A stretch of 37,661 nucleotides of DNA, taken from the NCBI RefSeq assembly GCF_017312725.1, contig NZ_BOPO01000114.1, forward strand, positions 1 through 37,661. Reading direction: 5' to 3'. Below the pieces are notes generated by a model that saw only the letters and a list, made by a program, of their open reading frames with translations, searched no databases and had not been told where the DNA came from. The position numbers and the translations under genes are program-made. Source of the stretch: Actinocatenispora comari (GTDB lineage Bacteria; Actinomycetota; Actinomycetes; Mycobacteriales; Micromonosporaceae). Shown here piece after piece: positions 5,131-15,239 of this stretch. Each line of letters begins with the position of its first letter. The stretch's first letter is position 1.

Positions 5131-5985
5131 TCACGCGCTCCGACCCAGCACGCTAGCGCAAGAGCGCCACACCGTGTCGGCGGAGGCACGCAACGCATCC
5201 ACAGCTGGTCCGTTTTGGAGTATTTCACGGGAGTATGCGGGCAGGACCAGCGGCAATGCCGGACCGAACAGATCGGTCAGGTCAGCCGGCCGACCGCCCT
5301 GCGCGCCCAGTCCCGGCGCCAGCAACGGGCCGTTCACCTTCGCCAGATCGTGACCGATTCCGCCCGCTGCGGTCGCTCCGATCACCGCACCGAGCGACCC
5401 GAACGGGGTGGCCCCGGCATTGCGGGCGGCCAGCTCGGCCAGGATCGTGCCGGCCACCGTACGACCGTCCGCGGCCACCGCGCGCTGCACCCCGGCGCCC
5501 TCCGGGTTCGACGTCAGCGCCAGCACGAACACCCCCTTGCCGTGCTTCGCCGCCAGCTCGAACATCGGTTCCAGCGAACCGAACCCCAGGTACGGGCTGG
5601 CGGTCACCGCGTCGCCGGCCAGCGGGCTGGCCGGGTCGAGGTAGGCGTCCGCGTACGCGGCGACGGTCGAGCCGATGTCGCCGCGCTTGGCGTCCACCAG
5701 TACCAGCGCGCCGGCCGAGCGGGCCTCGGCGATCACCGTCTCCAGTACCGCGATGCCGCGGGAGCCGTGCCGCTCGAAGAACGCCGACTGCGGCTTGAGC
5801 ACCGCGACGCGGTCGGCGAGCGCCTCGACCACGGTACGGGCGAACCGGTCCAGGCCGGCCGCGTCGTCGCCCAGGCCCCAGGCGGACAGCAGCCCGGGGT
5901 GCGGGTCGATGCCGACGCACAGCGCCGGCCGGGCGGCACCGGCCGCGGCCAGCCGGGCGGCGAACGAGGTCTGCGGATCGGTCAT
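5131..5985 (-). CDS. pyrF: Orotidine 5'-phosphate decarboxylase
   Basis: 284 residues, the length of the longer actinobacterial/archaeal-type subfamily. It converts OMP to UMP, the last step of de novo UMP synthesis. The catalytic segment [20 protein letters not shown] contains the Lys100/Asp103 pair, CVGIDPHPG (23-31) binds the substrate ribose, and [13 protein letters not shown] lies near the C-terminus. The ATG at 5985 overlaps the pyrD stop in an ATGA, so translation is probably coupled. It is the last gene of the pyr operon. The 153 bases that follow hold the mihF promoter. Confidence 0.97.
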
Positions 5986-7085
5986 CGCGACTCCTGCCTG
6001 CTGTCCGCGGCCACCCGCGGTCGGTACACGGTCTGGCCGACCGCGCGGTTGATCTGGCGGACCAGCTGGGGCCCGCGGTAGATGAACCCGGTGTAGAGCT
6101 GCACCAGGCTCGCGCCGGCGTCCAGCATCCGCAGCGCGCCGTGCGGGTCGAGGATGCCGCCGACCCCGATGACGGGCAACCGGCCACCGGTCTGCCGGTG
6201 GACGAAGTCGACCAGCTGCACGGCACGCTCGTGCAGCGGCCGGCCGGACAGACCCCCGGTCTCGCCGCCGGCCGCGGTGTCCGCGCTGGCCAGGCCGTCG
6301 CGGGCCAGCGTCGTGTTGGTGGCGATGATGCCGGCCACCCCGGCGTCCGTGCAGACCTGCAGCAGCTCGGCCAGCGCCGGCTCGGTCAGGTCCGGCGCTA
6401 CCTTCACCAGCAGCGGGCGGGGCGGCGCGTCGCCGGCCAGCGCCCGGGACTCCGCGGACAGCGCCGCGAGCAGCTCGGCCAGCGCGCCGGCGTCCTGCAG
6501 CGTGCGCAGGCCCGGGGTGTTCGGCGACGAGACGTTGATCGCGAAGTAGTCACCGTGCCGGTACAGGGTGCGCAGCGAGGCGAGGTAGTCGTCGACCGCG
6601 TCGGGCAGCGGCGTCACCTTCGACTTGCCGATGCTGATGCCCAGCGGTACCGGCAGCGGCCCCAGAGCGGCCAGCCGGGCCGCCAGGGCGGCCGCTCCGG
6701 CGTTGTTGAAGCCCATCCGGTTGATCAGGGCGTCCGAGGCCGTCAGCCGGAACAGGCGCGGTCTCGGGTTGCCGGGTTGCGGATGCCGGGTGACCGTGCC
6801 GACCTCGACGAACCCGAAGCCGAGCGCCGGCCAGGCCGGCAGCGCCACGCCGTCCTTGTCCAGCCCGGCGGCGAGACCCACCGGGTTCGGGAACCGAACG
6901 CCGAACGCCTGCACCGGCGCCGACCGGGCGTGCTTGCGGTACCGGGCGGTCGCGGCCCACAGCGCGGTGAGCCGGGCCGGCCCGCCGGCCAGCCCGGCCA
7001 ACGCCCGCAGCGTCGCGGTGTGCGCCACCTCGGCGTCCCCGCCGCCCAGCCGGAACAGCGCCGGGCGCAGCAGCTGCCGGTACAT
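5982..7085 (-). CDS. pyrD: Dihydroorotate dehydrogenase (quinone), class 2
   Basis: 367 residues. It oxidises dihydroorotate to orotate and passes electrons through FMN to membrane quinone. The N-terminal amphipathic stretch [20 protein letters not shown] is the class 2 membrane-association region. The core follows: [13 protein letters not shown] (67-79), [28 protein letters not shown], the active-site serine loop [11 protein letters not shown] (184-194) and IGVGGI plus [13 protein letters not shown] near the FMN phosphate. The reading frame stays open far upstream through carB, but that is an antiphase shadow. The ATG at 7085 shares one base with the carB stop (TGATG). pyrF follows with an ATGA overlap. 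Confidence 0.97.
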
Positions 7086-10000
7086 CAGGCGCCGCGCCGG
7101 GCCGCGTGCAGCGCCTGCAGCGGCCGTACCGTCATCTCGCCGCGGATCAGCGCCTCGATGCCCATGATCGCCGCCGACGCACCCTGCACCGTGGTGATGC
7201 ACGGGGTGTCGGTGGTGACCGCGGCGCTGCGGATCTCGTACCCGTCGGCGCGCGGTCCGGACCCGTGCGGCGTGTTGATCACCAGCGCCACGCCGCCGGA
7301 CTCGATCAACTCGACGGCGTTGGGTCCGGCGTCGCCGGCCGGGTCCTCGAAGTGCTTGCGCACCACCCGGGTGGCGATGCCGTGCCGGCGCAGCACCTCC
7401 GCGGTACCGGCGGTCGCGACGATCTCGAAGCCGAGATCGGCGAGCCGCTTGACCGGGAAGATCAGCGCCCGCTTGTCCCGGTTGGCGGCCGAGACGAACA
7501 CGGTGCCGGCGGTCGGCAGCGAGCCGTACACGGCGGCCTGCGACTTGGCGAACGCGTGGCCGAAGCTGGTGTCGATGCCCATCACCTCGCCGGTGGACTT
7601 CATCTCCGGCCCGAGCAGCGAGTCGACGCCGCGGCCCTCCAGCGTGCGGAACCGCTTGAACGGCAGTACCGCCTCCTTGACCGCGACCGGGGCGCCCGCC
7701 GGCAGCGTGGCGTTGTCGCCGGTGGCCGGCAGCAACCCCTCGACGCGCAGCTGCTCGATGGTGGCGCCGAGCATGATCCGGGCCGCCGCCTTCGCCAGCG
7801 ACACGCCGGTCGCCTTGGACACGAACGGCACCGTGCGGCTGGCACGCGGGTTGGCCTCCAGCACGTACAGCCGGTCGTCCTTCAGCGCGTACTGCACGTT
7901 GAGCAGCCCGCGGACCCCCACCCCGTGCGCGATGGCCTCGGTGTAGCGGCGGACCTGCTCGATGTCGGAGGCGCCGAGGGTGATCGGCGGCAGCGCGCAG
8001 GACGAGTCGCCGGAGTGCACCCCGGCCTCCTCGATGTGCTCCATCACGCCGCCGAGGAACACCCGCTCGCCGTCGCACAGCGCGTCCACGTCGATCTCGA
8101 TCGCGTCGTCGAGGAACCGGTCGACCAGCACCGGGTGCTCCGGCGAGGCCTCCGTCGCGCGGTCGATGTAGCCGCGCAGGGTGTCCTCGTCGTACACGAT
8201 CTCCATGCCGCGCCCGCCCAGCACGTACGACGGGCGCACCAGCACCGGGTAGCCGATCTCGTCGGCGATCTCCTTCGCCTCCTCGAACGAGGTGGCCGTG
8301 CCGTACTGCGGGGCGGCGAGGCCGGCGTCGGTGAGCAGCTTGCCGAACAGGCCGCGGTCCTCGGCCGCGTCGATGCTCGCCGGGCTGGTACCGACCACCG
8401 GCACGCCGGCGTCCGCGAGCCGCCGGGCCAGCCCCAGCGGCGTCTGCCCGCCCAGCTGCACGATCACGCCGACCACGCCGGGGCCGCCGGCCGCCTTGCC
8501 GGACGAGTCCTCGGCGTGCACGACCTCCAGCACGTCCTCGAAGGTCAGCGGCTCGAAGTAGAGCCGGTCGGCGGTGTCGTAGTCGGTCGACACCGTCTCC
8601 GGGTTGCAGTTGACCATGACCGTCTCGTACCCGCCGTCGCCGGCGGCCGGATCGCGCAGCGCCATCACCGCGTGCACGCACGAGTAGTCGAACTCGATGC
8701 CCTGCCCGATCCGGTTCGGCCCGGAGCCGAGGATCAGCACCTTGGGCCGCGCCGACGGCGCCACCTCGGTCTCCGCGGCCGGATCGGTCTCGTACGCCGA
8801 GTAGTGGTAGGGCGTGGTGGCGGCGAACTCGGCCGCGCAGGTGTCGACGGTCTTGTACACCGGGCGCACGCCGAGGCGGTGCCGCAACCGGCGCACCCCG
8901 TCCTCGCCGGCGAGCTCCGGGCGCAGCGCGGCGAGCTGCCGGTCGGACAGCCCGGCCCGCTTGGCCCGGCGCAGCAGCGTCGCGTCCAGCACCGCCGCCT
9001 CGGTGATCTCGGCCCGCAGCTCGACCAGCGCGGCGACCTGGTCGACGAACCACGGGTCCATCCCGGACGCCTCGCACACCGCGGCCACGGTGGCGCCGGC
9101 GCGCAGGGCCCGCTCGACCGTGTACAGCCGACCGTCGTGCGGGGTGCGCAGCGCGGTCAGCAGCTCGTCCACCGTGGCGGGCGCGCCGTCCCGGGTCCAG
9201 AAGCCGGCGGCCTTGGTCTCCATCGACCGCATCGCCTTGTTCAGCGCCTCGCCGAAGCTGCGGCCCAGCGACATCGCCTCGCCGACCGACTTCATCGTGG
9301 TGGTCAGCTCCGGGTCGGCACCCGGGAACTTCTCGAACGTGAACCGCGGGATCTTGACGACCACGTAGTCCAGCGCCGGCTCGAACGCCGCCGGCGTCGC
9401 CTTCGTGATGTCGTTCGGGATCTCGTCCAGGGTGTAGCCGACGGCGAGCTTCGCGGCGATCTTCGCGATCGGGAACCCGGTCGCCTTCGACGCCAGCGCC
9501 GACGAGCGGGACACCCGCGGGTTCATCTCGATCACGATCATCCGGCCGTCGACCGGGTTGACCGCGAACTGAATGTTGCACCCGCCGGTGTCCACCCCGA
9601 CCTTGCGCAGCACCGCGATCGCCAGGTCACGCATCTGCTGGTACTCGCGGTCGGTCAGCGTCATCGCCGGCGCCACGGTGACCGAGTCGCCGGTGTGCAC
9701 GCCCATCGGGTCGACGTTCTCGATCGAGCAGACGACCACGACGTTGTCGTTGCGGTCGCGCATCAGCTCCAGCTCGTACTCCTTCCAGCCGAGTACGGAC
9801 TCCTCGATCAGCACCTCGTGCGTCGGGCTGGCGGCCAGGCCCGCACCGGCGATGCGTTCCAGCTGGTCCGGGTCGTGCGCCATGCCGGAACCCAGCCCGC
9901 CCATGGTGAAGCTGGGCCGGATCACGACCGGCAGGCCGAGCTCGGCGACCGTGTCGCGCACCTCGGCCATCGTGTGACACACCGCGCTGCGCGGCACGTC

Positions 10001-10438
10001 CCCGCCGACCTCGCGGACCACCTGCTTGAACTTCTCCCGATCCTCGCCGCGCCCGATCGCCTCGATGTCCGCGCCGATCAGCTCGACCCCGTGCTTGACC
10101 AGGATGCCCTGCTCGTCCAGCGCGACCGCGGCGTTCAGCGCGGTCTGCCCGCCGAGGGTGGCGAGCAGCGCGTCGATCGGGTGCCCATTCGCCGCCTCGG
10201 TCGCGATCACCTGCTCGATGAACTCGGTGGTGATCGGCTCGACGTAGGTCGCGTCGGCGAACTCCGGGTCGGTCATGATCGTCGCCGGGTTCGAGTTCAC
10301 CAGCGTGACCCGCAGCCCCTCGGCCTTCAGCACCCGGCACGCCTGGGTACCGGAGTAGTCGAACTCGCACGCCTGGCCGATCACGATCGGCCCGGAGCCG
10401 ATCACCAGCACGTGTCCGATGTCGGTACGCCTAGGCAT
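7085..10438 (-). CDS. carB: Carbamoyl-phosphate synthase large subunit
   Basis: 1117 residues. It makes carbamoyl phosphate from bicarbonate, ammonia delivered by CarA, and two ATP, for pyrimidine and arginine synthesis. Two homologous ATP-grasp halves are visible: the first begins [20 protein letters not shown], the second [20 protein letters not shown]. Each has a metal-binding region, [19 protein letters not shown] in the first and [19 protein letters not shown] in the second. The last 150 residues form the allosteric MGS domain ([40 protein letters not shown]), where UMP and ornithine act in characterised homologues. The ATG at 10438 overlaps the end of carA by eight bases. pyrD follows at once. 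Confidence 0.98.
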
Positions 10439-11594
10439 CCGCCGGCCCCCCTTGCGTTGCGGTGGCCGGTCGGGCCTGCCCCTCGATCAATGCGGTGAAC
10501 CTGTCGAACAGGTAGTCGGCGTCGTGCGGACCGGCCGCCGCCTCCGGGTGGTACTGCACGGAGAACGCCGCGGTGCGCTCCCCGTCGGTGACCCGCAGCC
10601 CCTCGACCACGTCGTCGTTGAGGCACACGTGGCTGACCTCGACCCGGCCGTACTCGGTGTCGGTCGCCCGGTCGGCCGGCGCGTCCACGGCGAAACCGTG
10701 GTTGTGCGCGGTGACCTCGACCTTGCCGGTCGTCCGGTCCTGCACCGGCTGGTTGATGCCGTGGTGGCCGTAGCCGAGCTTGTAGGTGCCGAAGCCCAGC
10801 GCGCGGCCGAGGATCTGGTTGCCGAAGCAGATGCCGAAGATCGGCACCTTGCGGGCCAGCAGTGTCCGGGTCAGCTCGACCTGCTCGTCGGCGGTCGCCG
10901 GGTCGCCCGGCCCGTTGGACAGGAACACCGCGTCCGCGCCGGTGGCCAGCACGTCGTCGAGGCTGGCGGTGGCCGGCAGTACGTGCGTGGTGACGCCCCG
11001 GGCGGCCAACCGGCGCGGCGTGTTGCGCTTGATGCCCAGGTCCAGCGCCGCCACCGTGAACCGGTGCGTGCCCTCGGCGAGCACCGAGTACGGCTGCGGG
11101 GTGGTGACCTCGCCGACCAGGTTGGCGCCGACCATCGCGGGTGCGGTCCGCACCTTCGCCAGCAGCGCCGCCGGGTCGGTGTCCACGCTGGACACGCCGA
11201 CCCGCATCGCGCCGCGTTCGCGCAGGTGCCGGGTCAGCGCCCGGGTGTCGATGCCGGCGATGCCGACGACACCCTGCTCGGCCAGCCGGTCGGCGAGCGA
11301 GCCGGTGGCCCGCCAGTTCGAGGCAATCCGGGCCGGGTCCCGGGCCACGTAGCCGGCCAACCACATCCGGCCGGACTCGTCGTCCTCGCCGTTCACCCCG
11401 GTGTTGCCGATGTGCGGCGCGGTCATCGTGACCACCTGGCCGCGGTACGACGGGTCGGTCAGCGTCTCCTGGTAGCCGGTCATGCCGGTGTTGAACACCG
11501 CCTCGCCGAACGTCTCACCGATCGCGCCGAACGCCTCGCCGGTGAAGGTGCGGCCGTCCTCCAGCACCAGGATCGCGGTCTTGCTCGTGCTCAT
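10431..11594 (-). CDS. carA: Carbamoyl-phosphate synthase small (glutaminase) subunit
   Basis: 387 residues. It hydrolyses glutamine and channels ammonia to CarB. The N-terminal domain has [18 protein letters not shown] and [20 protein letters not shown]. The class I glutamine amidotransferase domain carries the nucleophile Cys256 in FGICFGNQ and His349/Glu351 in QYHPEA. I chose the ATG at 11594 because GGAGG sits seven bases ahead and the sequence matches the family from there. The 37 codons open upstream are not CarA-like. It lies 73 bases after pyrC, the only true gap inside the pyr operon, and overlaps carB by eight bases. Confidence 0.97.
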
Positions 11595-11667: not shown

Positions 11668-12990
11668 TCACCGTTGCGCCTTCCCGTCCAGTACGGTCGG
11701 CGCACCGGCCAGGAACGTCGCCACCACGCGGCCGGGCAGGGTGCGCCCCGCGTACGGCGTGTTGCGGCTGCGCGAGGCGATCTCGCCGCCGTCCACCGTC
11801 ACCCGGGCCGCCGGGTCGACCAGCGTCAGGTTCGCCGGTACACCGGGGGCCGGGTCGCGGCCGTGCCCGGCCAGGCCGGCGATGCGCGCCGGTCGGCGGC
11901 TCATCCGTTCCGCGACCCCGTCCCAGTCGAGCCGTGCCGGGCCGGGCTCGCCGCCACCGTCGAGCAGCGCGGGGTCGAGCATCGTGTGCAGCACCACCGG
12001 CAGTGCGGTCTGCAGGCCGAGCATGCCGGGCCGCGCGTACGGCCACTCGCACTCCTTGTCCTCGACCGTGTGCGGGGCATGGTCGGTGGCGACCACGTCG
12101 ACCACCCCGTCGGCCAGCGCGGCGCGCAGCGCGGCCACGTCGGCGTCGGTGCGCAGCGGCGGGTTGACCTTGAACACCGGGTCGTAGCTCTCCGCCAGCG
12201 CGTCGGTCAGCAGCAGGTGGTGCGGGGTGACCTCGGCGGTCACCCGGATCCCGCGGGCCTTGGCCCAGCGCAGGATCTCCACGCTGCCGGCGGTGGACAC
12301 GTGGCAGATGTGCAGCCGGGCGCCGACGTGCTCGGCCAGCAGCACGTCGCGGGCGATGATCGCCTCCTCGGCGACCGCCGGCCAGCCGGTCAGCCCCAGC
12401 CGGGCCGACCACTCGCCCTCGTGCATCTGCGCGCCGGCGGTCAGCCGCGGCTCCTCGGCGTGCTGGGCGATCACCCCGTCGAACGCCTTCACGTACTCCA
12501 GCGCGCGGCGCATCAGCCGCGGGTCGGACACGCAGTGGCCGTCGTCGGAGAAGATCCGCACCGCGGCGGCGGAGTCGGCCATCGCGCCCAGCTCGGCCAG
12601 CCGCTCGCCGGCGAGGCCCACGGTCACCGCGCCGATCGGCTGCACGTGCGCCAGCCCGGCGTCCCGGCCCAGCCGGTACACCTGCTCGACCACGCCGGCG
12701 GTGTCGGCGACCGGGTCGGTGTTGGCCATCGCGCAGACCGCGGTGTAGCCGCCCAGGGCCGCCGCGCGGGAGCCGGACTCGACGGTCTCGGCGTCCTCCC
12801 GGCCCGGCTCACGCAGGTGGGTGTGCAGGTCGACCAGGCCCGGCAGGGCGACCAGGCCGTCCGCGTCGATGCGGGTGGCACCGGGCGCGGACGCGCCGGG
12901 CGCCACCTCGGCGACCACGCCGTCGGTGATCACGATGTCGGTCTTGGCGGCGCCCAGGATCCGGGCACCGGTCAGCACGAAGCTGCTCAC
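11668..12990 (-). CDS. pyrC: Dihydroorotase
   Basis: 440 residues, the class I (amidohydrolase) form. It cyclises carbamoyl aspartate to dihydroorotate at a zinc centre. The metal motif [10 protein letters not shown] contains His56 and His58. [46 protein letters not shown] and the catalytic ATDHAPHT follow in the standard order. The GTG at 12990 overlaps the pyrB stop as GTGA, implying translational coupling. From memory, many actinobacteria have a small membrane protein gene between pyrC and carA. Here only 73 non-coding bases separate them. Confidence 0.97.
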
Positions 12991-13901
12991 GACTTTCCCC
13001 CCAGCAGCAGGTAGAGCACGGCCATCCGGACGCTGACCCCGTTGGCCACCTGTTCGACGATCGTGGCCCGGGCCGAGTCGGCGACCTCCGGGGCGATCTC
13101 CATTCCGCGGTTCATCGGCCCCGGGTGCATCACGATCGCGTGCTCCGGCAGCCGCGCCGCCCGCGCCACGTCCAGGCCGTAGCGCCGGGCGTACTCCCGG
13201 GCCGACGGGAAGTACGAGTCGTTCATCCGTTCCCGCTGCACCCGCAGCATCATCACCACGTCGACGTCGCCCAGCACCGCGTCCAGGTCGTACGAGACCG
13301 CGCAGGGCCAGGCGCCGACCCCGACCGGCAGCAGCGTCGGCGGGCTGACCAGGGTGACCTTGGCACCGAGGGTGGCGAGCAGCAGCACGTTGGACCGGGC
13401 GACCCGGCTGTGCAGCACGTCACCCACGATCGCCACCCGCAGCCCCTCGAGAGTGCCGAGCCGGGACCGCATCGTGTACGCGTCGAGCAGCGCCTGGGTG
13501 GGGTGCTCGTGGGTGCCGTCGCCGGCGTTGACCACGCTGCCGTCCACCCACCGGGCCAGCCGGTGCGGCGCGCCGGACGCGGAGTGCCGGATCACCACCG
13601 CGTCGGCGCCCATCGCCTGCAGGGTCAGCGCGGTGTCCTTGAGCGACTCCCCCTTGGACACGCTGGAGCCCTTGGCGGAGAAGTTGATCACGTCGGCACT
13701 CAGCCGCTTCGCGGCCACCTCGAACGAGGTGCGGGTGCGGGTGGAGTCCTCGTAGAACAGGTTCACCACGGTGCGGCCGCGCAGCGTCGGCAGCTTCTTC
13801 ACCTCGCGGCCGGCGACGGTGGCCATCTCGGTGGCGGTGTCGAGCACCAGGGTGGCGGTACTGCGGTCCAGGTCGGCCGCACTGAGCAGGTGGGTGATCA
13901 T
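12987..13901 (-). CDS. pyrB: Aspartate carbamoyltransferase catalytic subunit
   Basis: 304 residues. It condenses carbamoyl phosphate and aspartate, the committed pyrimidine step. The carbamoyl-phosphate loop is [20 protein letters not shown] (Ser-Thr-Arg-Thr-Arg core). [19 protein letters not shown] supplies the second phosphate/Lys region, and [19 protein letters not shown] and HPGPMNRG follow. No pyrI regulatory gene is nearby, which fits an unregulated trimeric enzyme. The ATG at 13901 overlaps the pyrR stop (ATGA) and has GGAGGGGAG ahead inside pyrR. pyrC follows with another four-base overlap. Confidence 0.97.
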
Positions 13902-14557
13902 CGGCGCTCCCCTCCGGCAGCCGGGGCGGTGTCCTCGCTCGGGCCGGCGAGCAGCACCGCGTCGGCGCCGTCGACCTCGCGCAGCAGTACCCGGACGCTT
14001 TCGGCGAGCGAGGTGGGCAGGTTCTTGCCGACGTAGTCGGCGCGGATCGGCAGCTGCCGGTGGCCGCGGTCGACCAGCACCGCGAGCTGCACCTGGCTGG
14101 GCCGGCCGAGGTCGTTGAGCGCGTCCAGCGCGGCGCGCACGGTGCGACCGGAGAACAGCACGTCGTCGGCGAGGATGACCCGCTTACCGTCGATGCCGCC
14201 GGGCGGCAGGTCGGTCGGGCCGACCGCGCGGGTGCGCTGCAGCCGCAGGTCGTCGCGGTAGAGGGTGACGTCCAGGGTGCCGACCGGCACCTGCACGCCC
14301 TCGAAGGCGGCGATCCGGTCGGCCAGCCGGGCGGCGAGCGGGACGCCACGGGTCGGGATGCCCAGCAGTACCGTGTCGGTGGCGCCGCGGGTCTTCTCCA
14401 GGATCTGGTGGGCGATCCGGGCGGTGATGCGGGCGAGGTCCGATCCGGTCAGGATCGGCCGATGGTTTCCGGGATCGGCCGCTTCGGTGGACTTCAACCG
14501 GTTCGCGGCATCGTGATCCGGCCGGCCTTCGGGCAGGCCGGCGGGTGGTGCGGTCAT
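13898..14557 (-). CDS. pyrR: Pyrimidine operon regulator / uracil phosphoribosyltransferase PyrR
   Basis: 219 residues. PyrR binds pyr mRNA in a UMP-dependent way and in many species also has weak uracil phosphoribosyltransferase activity. The PRPP-binding motif is [37 protein letters not shown] and [13 protein letters not shown] are typical PyrR segments, and [20 protein letters not shown] lies in the known RNA-binding face of the family. About 35 residues at the N-terminus are extra and low in complexity. It is the first gene of pyrR-pyrB-pyrC-carA-carB-pyrD-pyrF. The ATG at 14557 has AAGGAG eight bases ahead, and that site is buried in the PyrR-binding hairpin described separately. Confidence 0.96.
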
Positions 14558-14566
14558 GTTCCAGAC

Positions 14567-14600
14567 TCCTTCCCCGCCTCACCGGACGGGCCTTAAAGGA
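14567..14600 (-). promoter_or_regulatory. PyrR-binding hairpin sequestering the pyrR ribosome binding site
   Basis: In the minus-strand leader, a lower stem pairs UCCUUU (14600-14595) with GAAGGA (14572-14567). A purine bulge AAGG (14594-14591) follows on the 5' side. The upper stem pairs CCCGUC (14590-14585) with GGCGGG (14578-14573), and the hexaloop is CGGUGA (14584-14579). This is the architecture of the Bacillus PyrR site: lower stem, purine-rich 5' bulge, upper stem and CNGNGA hexaloop. The 3' arm of the lower stem contains most of the AAGGAG Shine-Dalgarno (14571-14566). Bound PyrR-UMP would therefore block pyrR translation and, through coupling, the operon. Mycobacterium smegmatis is reported to use PyrR-dependent translational repression of this kind. 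The structure is seen; the function is inferred. Confidence 0.82.
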
Positions 14601-14617
14601 CGCCATACGCGCGCTCA

Positions 14618-14646
14618 ACAGTACCAACACTCAAATTGACGCAAGT
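14618..14646 (-). promoter_or_regulatory. Likely pyr operon promoter
   Basis: Minus strand: an extended -10, TGG followed by TACTGT (14623-14618), with a weak -35-like ACTTGC (14646-14641) 17 bases upstream. Transcription would begin near 14611, about ten bases before the PyrR hairpin and 54 bases before the pyrR start. It diverges from the bldD promoter. Confidence 0.5.
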
Positions 14647-14663
14647 TTTCGGGTGACCAGCAC

Positions 14664-14693
14664 TTGACCGACCGTCGCCCTTCCGAATACCGT
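14664..14693 (+). promoter_or_regulatory. Likely bldD promoter
   Basis: TTGACC (14664-14669) and TACCGT (14688-14693) are separated by 18 bases, a good housekeeping-sigma match. Transcription would start near 14700, giving a leader of about 50 bases. The BldD-box-like sequence at 14692-14706 overlaps the end of the -10 and the start point. Confidence 0.55.
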
Positions 14694-14706
14694 CACGCTC
14701 CGTAGC
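14692..14706 (+). promoter_or_regulatory. BldD-box-like operator over the bldD transcription start
   Basis: GTCACGCTCCGTAGC matches eight of ten defined positions of the published BldD consensus nTnACnC(A/T)GnGTnAn, missing only the central G and the last A. It overlaps the bldD -10 and predicted start. BldD represses its own promoter in Streptomyces, so autoregulation is the natural reading, but short GC-rich matches can arise by chance. Confidence 0.45.
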
Positions 14707-14750
14707 GATTGCTGGGGAGAGACCTCGGCCATGTGAGTGGGAGTCAGCGC

Positions 14751-15239
14751 ATGCCGTCTGAGTACGCGAAGTCCCTCGGCGCCCGACTGCGCGCCATCCG
14801 CCAACAGCAGGGGCTGTCCCTGCAGGGGGTGGAGGAGAAGTCGGGCGGCCGCTGGAAGGCAGTGGTGGTCGGTTCGTACGAGCGCGGGGACCGTGCGGTC
14901 ACCGTGGCCCGGCTGGCCGAGCTGGCCGACTTCTACCGGGTTCCGGTAGCGGAGCTGCTGCCCGACGGTGGCGGCACCCGGCAGGAGTCCGCCGGCAAGA
15001 TCGTCCTGGACCTCGAGCAGCTGTACGAGCACACCGCCGACGAGCTCGCGCCCGTCGCCCGGTACGCGCGGGCCATCCAGCAGCAGCGCGGTGACTACAA
15101 CGGCCGCGTGCTGTCGATTCGGGCCGACGACCTGCGGGCGCTCGCGATCGTGTACGACACGTCGCCGTCCGGTCTGGTGGAGCGGTTCACCGAGCTGGGT
15201 GTGCTGGTCGCCGACCCGCGCGCGCTGTTCGGCGGCTGA
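14751..15239 (+). CDS. bldD: Developmental master regulator BldD
   Basis: 162 residues. BldD is a dimeric repressor of sporulation genes in differentiating actinomycetes, activated by cyclic di-GMP. The N-terminal helix-turn-helix (residues 5-70) is nearly unchanged from Streptomyces: SLGARLRAIRQQQGLSLQGV, GGRWKAVVVGSYERGDRAVT and RLAELADFYRVPVAELL. The C-terminal domain carries the cyclic di-GMP signature as RGD (113-115), eight residues, then RADD (124-127). The Streptomyces form is RQDD, so Gln is Ala here while both Arg and the acidic residues remain. I chose the ATG at 14751 (MPSEYAKSLG) with GGGAG seven bases ahead. It is divergent from pyrR and convergent with nusB. Confidence 0.96.
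   Translation: MPSEYAKSLGARLRAIRQQQGLSLQGVEEKSGGRWKAVVVGSYERGDRAVTVARLAELADFYRVPVAELLPDGGGTRQESAGKIVLDLEQLYEHTADELAPVARYARAIQQQRGDYNGRVLSIRADDLRALAIVYDTSPSGLVERFTELGVLVADPRALFGG

Follow-up and report, generated by a model that had tools for sequence, protein, structure and literature searches.

The analyzed stretch of Actinocatenispora comari DNA, hereafter the window, is 37,661 nucleotides long and carries a pyr cluster in which a bulged hairpin lies directly 5′ of pyrR (Table 1). The PyrR protein is intact and has relatives of solved structure, its nearest named matches being from Paractinoplanes, Salinispora, and Micromonospora. The residue just before its RIAH motif, which we take to be near the RNA-binding surface, is Ala, compared to Thr in the aligned ancestral PyrR, a difference that counts against PyrR control. 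The pyrR gene is oriented divergently from bldD, which encodes a developmental regulator, and the two genes have a common intergenic region of about 190 bp (14558-14750). A sigma-70 scan found no pyrR promoter. By eye, the TACTGT sequence is a candidate −10 element, from which transcription would be expected to start near 14611, on the 5′ side of the hairpin.

Table 1 Features of the pyr cluster and of the hairpin preceding pyrR in the window
Feature	Coordinates	Strand	Basis
pyrF	5131..5985	-	TIGR02127, 255.2 bits
carB	7085..10438	-	NF003671, 1612.3 bits
carA	10431..11594	-	TIGR01368, 436.1 bits
pyrC, 4-nt overlap with pyrB	11668..12990	-	NF006836, 726.4 bits
pyrB, 4-nt overlap with pyrR	12987..13901	-	NF002032, 418.9 bits
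pyrR, bifunctional pyr regulator/uracil phosphoribosyltransferase	13898..14557	-	NF003547, 284.8 bits (cut-off 230)
Shine-Dalgarno AAGGAG of pyrR (AAGGA within the lower-stem 3′ arm)	14566..14571	-	Sequence
PyrR-type bulged hairpin	14567..14600	-	Sequence, fold, covariance model, covariation
Hairpin lower stem, UCCUUU/GAAGGA	14600-14595 / 14572-14567	-	Sequence and fold
Hairpin bulge, AAGG, 5′ side	14594-14591	-	Sequence and fold
Hairpin upper stem, CCCGUC/GGCGGG	14590-14585 / 14578-14573	-	Sequence and fold
Hairpin loop, CGGUGA	14584-14579	-	Sequence and fold
Proposed pyrR −10 element, TACTGT	14618..14623	-	By eye
bldD, divergent neighbor	14751..15239	+	NF050110, 275.2 bits (cut-off 250)

The anatomy of the hairpin was read from the sequence and agreed with the fold. 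A preliminary description of the window had given it a lower stem, an AAGG bulge, an upper stem, and a CGGUGA loop, and all four were found, on the minus strand, which that description had left unstated, the minimum free energy and centroid structures from RNAfold both being this bulged hairpin, at −14.8 kcal/mol. The consensus of the PyrR-binding RNA element, which we take to be two stems, a purine bulge on the 5′ side, and a CNGNGA loop, is matched in each of these parts, and the likeness drawn earlier to the hexaloop and bulged layout of the Bacillus PyrR sites holds. The ribosome-binding site had been placed in the 3′ arm of the lower stem, and it is there: AAGGA of the AAGGAG sequence (14571-14566) is paired in that arm, and AAGGAG is followed after 8 nt by the pyrR ATG (14557-14555). 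The overlaps claimed for the pyrB and pyrC genes were confirmed as well. The energy of the hairpin was ordinary for its composition, with 55 of 200 shuffles of the 43-nt stretch equally stable (z = −0.43). The 161-nt leader was, if anything, less stable than its shuffles (z = 0.97), and the plus strand of the hairpin stretch folded no better than shuffles. Since folding energy alone is at chance level, the significance of the hairpin comes from comparison across genomes.

Between 14450 and 14750, the Rfam PyrR family (RF00515) gave the better of two matches below the gathering score, at 28 bits (E = 0.046) compared to the 54 bits set for the whole model. The alignment spans the whole model, the second, terminator-like half aligning poorly, inside pyrR. 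A match to U2 snRNA in the region was rejected (15.9 bits against 100). We built a covariance model, R1, from 19 gap-free aligned sequences, namely, the window and 18 of 80 named pyrR loci that are of the window's class as far as their titles tell. When R1 was run on the 7.96-Mb assembly of A. comari, the window site, itself one of the 19 rows, scored 61.5 bits (E = 5.7e-14), and the next match had an E value of 2.23. R1 sites were present in all 101 genomes of the family, one each and our own included, at an E value of 1e-4, and in 97 of 98 genomes of the class, again including our own, at an E value of 0.01 (the miss was G179). Three class genomes (G159, G193, and G215) had a second match; that of G159 was rejected because it scored 30.7 bits and lay antisense within an open reading frame (ORF) resembling an acyl-CoA ligase. 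Each of the 80 named loci had one R1 match near the pyrR start, for 18 of them partly by construction because these loci are in R1.

Sites were also sought across the phylum, in an even draw of 149 genomes, 144 of which had a PyrR over the family cut-off. The 143 loci examined omit our own genome and G139, where the match begins at a contig edge, and include G137 twice. A hairpin was placed in 129 of these loci, in 118 by the model, accepted at E values up to 1 so that some placements are weak, and in 11 by pattern only. Among the 14 loci with no placed hairpin, L145 is strongly matched by the model (46.5 bits). By eye, hairpin-like stretches can be made out in three other unplaced loci (L132, L156, and L218), that of L132 being a variant hairpin. 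A PyrR over the family cut-off with no hairpin accepted by model or pattern was seen in family f38 (L106, L118, L126, and L127) and in family f17 (L130, L132, and L141).

Further analysis of the stems showed covariation. Among the 19 rows of R1, the stems are nearly invariant, with one pair changed on both sides. For the wider comparison, 208 loci yielded 95 distinct upper-stem sequences; a 5-nt loop had led to the exclusion of 2 of the 129 phylum loci. In this set, 93.3% of the upper-stem cells were paired, compared to 76.3% in shuffled sets, and the compensatory changes that the preliminary description had named as a check in related genomes were found, with 102 doubly changed cells compared to 31.6 on shuffling; none of 500 shuffles reached the observed value of either, although the shuffles ignore relatedness and the figures are not probabilities. 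Four of the six upper-stem pairs were changed on both sides, and slid partners paired in at most 51.2% of cells. The outermost pair is loose, being unpaired in 30 of the 95 sequences. Because the loop was used in selecting this set, its fixed positions in the 95 sequences result from that selection. In the lower stem, where the comparison uses printed arms only, the automatic pattern having misread many arms, CCG/CGG is found in eight loci (L206, L207, L211, L219, L220, L221, L222, and L224) and CCU/AGG in most others. Such a variety of pair types would be hard to explain without a structure.

In the class of the window, the hairpin as a rule lies directly before the start of pyrR. A pyrR-frame start codon is present 8 to 15 nt past AAGG in 76 of the 80 named loci; the remaining four failed only the protein-motif test, and their start codons are visible by eye. 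AAGG stands at the arm position in 79 of the 80, followed by AG or GG in 69 and by the more weakly matching TG or CG in 10. This weaker in-arm Shine-Dalgarno sequence (AAGGTGG or AAGGCGG, 10 of 80 loci) counts against reading the arm as an occluded ribosome site. Among 35 further loci of the class, an open pyrR frame was read in 28, beginning at the hairpin in 27 and at an ATG just past it in L231, and in the other 7 the pyrR motif was not found by the script.

Across the phylum, three layouts could be separated by a rule of thumb in which a locus is "direct" when the pyrR frame has a start codon 4 to 14 nt past the arm. By this rule, the 129 loci comprise 39 direct loci, 46 with a leader ORF, and 44 others. 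Because four of the last group (L195, L208, L214, and L215) have the start codon at 15 to 17 nt, the direct loci number 43. These 43 include every one of the 12 further genomes that the draw contains from the window's class, with the pyrR-frame start 8 to 17 nt past the arm. The remaining 31 lie outside the class; for example, all 13 loci of family f16 are direct. A terminator-like hairpin followed by a T-run was found in 1 of the 39 rule-sorted direct loci, compared to 23 of the 46 leader-ORF loci and 22 of the 44 others.

The leader ORF was examined in the 74 non-direct loci that have 50 to 140 nt up to the PyrR domain. In 34 of these, all from other classes, an ORF of 13 to 40 codons begins with ATG or GTG 6 to 13 nt past the arm and ends near the pyrR start; 50 shifted controls averaged 4.2 such loci, with 13 as the maximum. 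As we read it, the maximum occurred at shifts where the search interval catches the GTG of the loop. The ORF was uniform in some families (9 of 9 loci in f13, 6 of 6 in f14, 3 of 3 in f15, and 3 of 3 in f19) and absent from others (0 of 8 in f23 and 0 of 6 in f7). Examples are L096, L100, L101, L108, L113, L117, L124, L146, and L188 in f13, and L178, L179, L182, L185, L202, and L203 in f14. The N-terminal extension of PyrR may be a former leader peptide. In family f23 (L082, L086, L089, and L092), inspection by eye shows a Bacillus-like arrangement, with an intrinsic terminator after the hairpin and a possible antiterminator that would pair with its 3′ arm.

A second copy of the hairpin was found before carA in f67, another family of the window's class. 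Here the PyrR site is present in 79 of 80 genomes, and two sites are present in 19 of the 80; the PyrR of one member, G193, is closest among the 80 named loci to that of Nocardioides, at 84% identity. Each of the 19 two-site genomes has a hairpin before pyrR and another before carA. The carA hairpin (17 pairs plus G193 and G215; loci L259, L260, and L268-L301) has AAGGAG in its 3′ arm, with a start codon in the carA frame shortly after. This arrangement, a hairpin over the ribosome site in pyrR and in carA alike, is what translational repression predicts. Where there is one site and carA was found (n = 59), 57 genomes have carA on the strand of the hairpin, 2.7 to 3.6 kb downstream, and 2 have it on another contig or strand. 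Where there are two sites (n = 19), 14 genomes have carA 4.2 to 16.3 kb away from the pyrR hairpin, 4 have it at the spacing of an operon (2.9 to 3.0 kb), and 1 has it on a different contig or strand. This means that the second site mostly, but not always, accompanies the separation of carA. The carA gene of the window has no PyrR hairpin, R1 giving only one match below an E value of 2 in its own genome.

The most likely explanation of the window site, and in our judgment a highly probable one, is that PyrR with UMP would lock the hairpin over the Shine-Dalgarno sequence, with coupling carrying the effect to the overlapping genes. The leader of pyrR-pyrB-pyrC-carAB would contain a single PyrR-binding hairpin, the 3′ arm of which is the pyrR ribosome-binding site. 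At high levels of pyrimidine nucleotides (UMP), PyrR would bind and stabilize the hairpin and bar the 30S subunit from the Shine-Dalgarno sequence, leading to less translation of pyrR and, through coupling at the 4-nt overlaps, of pyrB and pyrC. At low levels, PyrR would leave and the ribosome would open the lower stem. The coupling need not reach carAB because carA starts 73 nt past pyrC and has its own Shine-Dalgarno sequence, AAGGAGG. We infer the binding of PyrR, its dependence on UMP, and the spread of repression to pyrB and pyrC. The repression of translation by PyrR that had been predicted for this operon thus gains support, in that the anatomy, the conservation, the covariation, the lack of a terminator, and the re-use at carA all fit occlusion.

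Transcription attenuation of the Bacillus type, in which bound PyrR would favor a terminator downstream of the hairpin, has its precedent in Bacillus, where PyrR is the attenuation protein (PMC4347634), and pyrR is preceded by a terminator-like hairpin in many loci of other classes. The window itself contains a GC-rich inverted repeat with 8-bp arms (14542-14521) in pyrR codons 6 to 13, where the terminator half of RF00515 aligns. However, this repeat has no T-run, and by eye it is absent from the stretches of up to 45 nt past the hairpin in related loci. No terminator-like site was found in 14400-14800, as the preliminary description had maintained, and the terminator-like element is missing from 38 of the 39 direct loci. 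We consider attenuation very unlikely here.

The stem alone covers the Shine-Dalgarno sequence, and a hairpin of this kind could in principle tune pyrR translation constitutively or by temperature, independently of PyrR. The unaided hairpin would already hide the site, which counts against a reading of PyrR control. However, the loop and bulge letters are constant while the stem letters vary, which is expected for protein recognition (the constancy of the loop comes partly from selection), and the same element is also found before carA. We consider tuning with no part for PyrR very unlikely. It is scarcely credible that the operon is regulated mainly at transcription, from the intergenic region common to bldD and pyrR, with the hairpin a minor modulator. 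The divergent bldD gene, with about 190 bp in common, would allow for this, but 97 of the 98 class genomes have the hairpin.

In the 2007 work of Fields and Switzer, the first ribosome-binding site is reportedly occluded by a hairpin, with no antiterminator or terminator, and the same mechanism is said to be expected in many other bacteria. In Mycobacterium smegmatis, uracil repression reportedly needs pyrR and is seen in translational and not in transcriptional fusions. A PyrR-dependent repression of translation has been published for the pyr operon of M. smegmatis (Fields and Switzer 2007, J Bacteriol 189:6236), as cited in PMC13328217, PMC6455119, PMC12369341, and PMC10672894. PyrR mutations in Mycobacterium tuberculosis or M. 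smegmatis are described, in the last of these, as leading to loss of the regulatory function and overexpression of the operon (PMC10672894). The window resembles this system in being an actinobacterial pyr leader with a PyrR hairpin over the first ribosome-binding site and no terminator, and it differs in coming from another family and in that its repression is predicted from sequence. Occlusion of a ribosome site by PyrR is not new, and the window would be a further example of the published mycobacterial mechanism. The preliminary description had drawn a contrast with the Bacillus attenuators only, whereas translational repression by PyrR was already in print.

Two other systems bear comparison. 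For the pyr leader of Thermus ZO5, PyrR was reportedly thought in 1997 (Van de Casteele) to act via translation next to the hairpin, and a leader ORF and a terminator before pyrR, with involvement of the translating ribosome, are said to have been proposed. The likeness lies in PyrR action through translation beside a hairpin. The difference is that the start codon after the hairpin in the window is that of pyrR itself and there is no terminator, whereas loci in other classes of the phylum do have a leader ORF and a terminator. Bacillus has three PyrR sites. The bulged hairpin, the purine bulge, and the CNGNGA-type loop of the Bacillus attenuators and RF00515 are also found in the window, which differs in having no antiterminator or terminator, one site in its genome, and an overlap of the site with the pyrR ribosome-binding site. 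The Bacillus mechanism is described in PMC4347634, and the PyrR motif, RF00515, is listed among surveyed families in PMC3766115. A literature search by title or start of abstract, whose coverage excludes most subscription journals, found, among the titles listed, no report of the leader-ORF or carA versions in actinobacteria.

These comparisons link the mechanism reported in mycobacteria to a site that almost every sampled genome of the class contains and that covariation supports. Beyond this, we lean toward the view that the PyrR hairpin of actinobacteria serves as a portable operator of translation, copied before carA over the ribosome site in lineages whose carAB genes are no longer part of the pyr operon or may be on their way out of it. 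The layouts of the phylum would then form a series. At one end stands direct occlusion, which prevails in the window's class and occurs in some others, and the series would also take in terminator attenuators and PyrR-gated leader ORFs running up to the pyrR start. The carA copies offer a natural way to test whether the element acts through its placement over a ribosome site. Finally, the presence of several layouts of one element in one phylum allows the switch between transcriptional and translational control by one RNA-binding protein to be compared directly.
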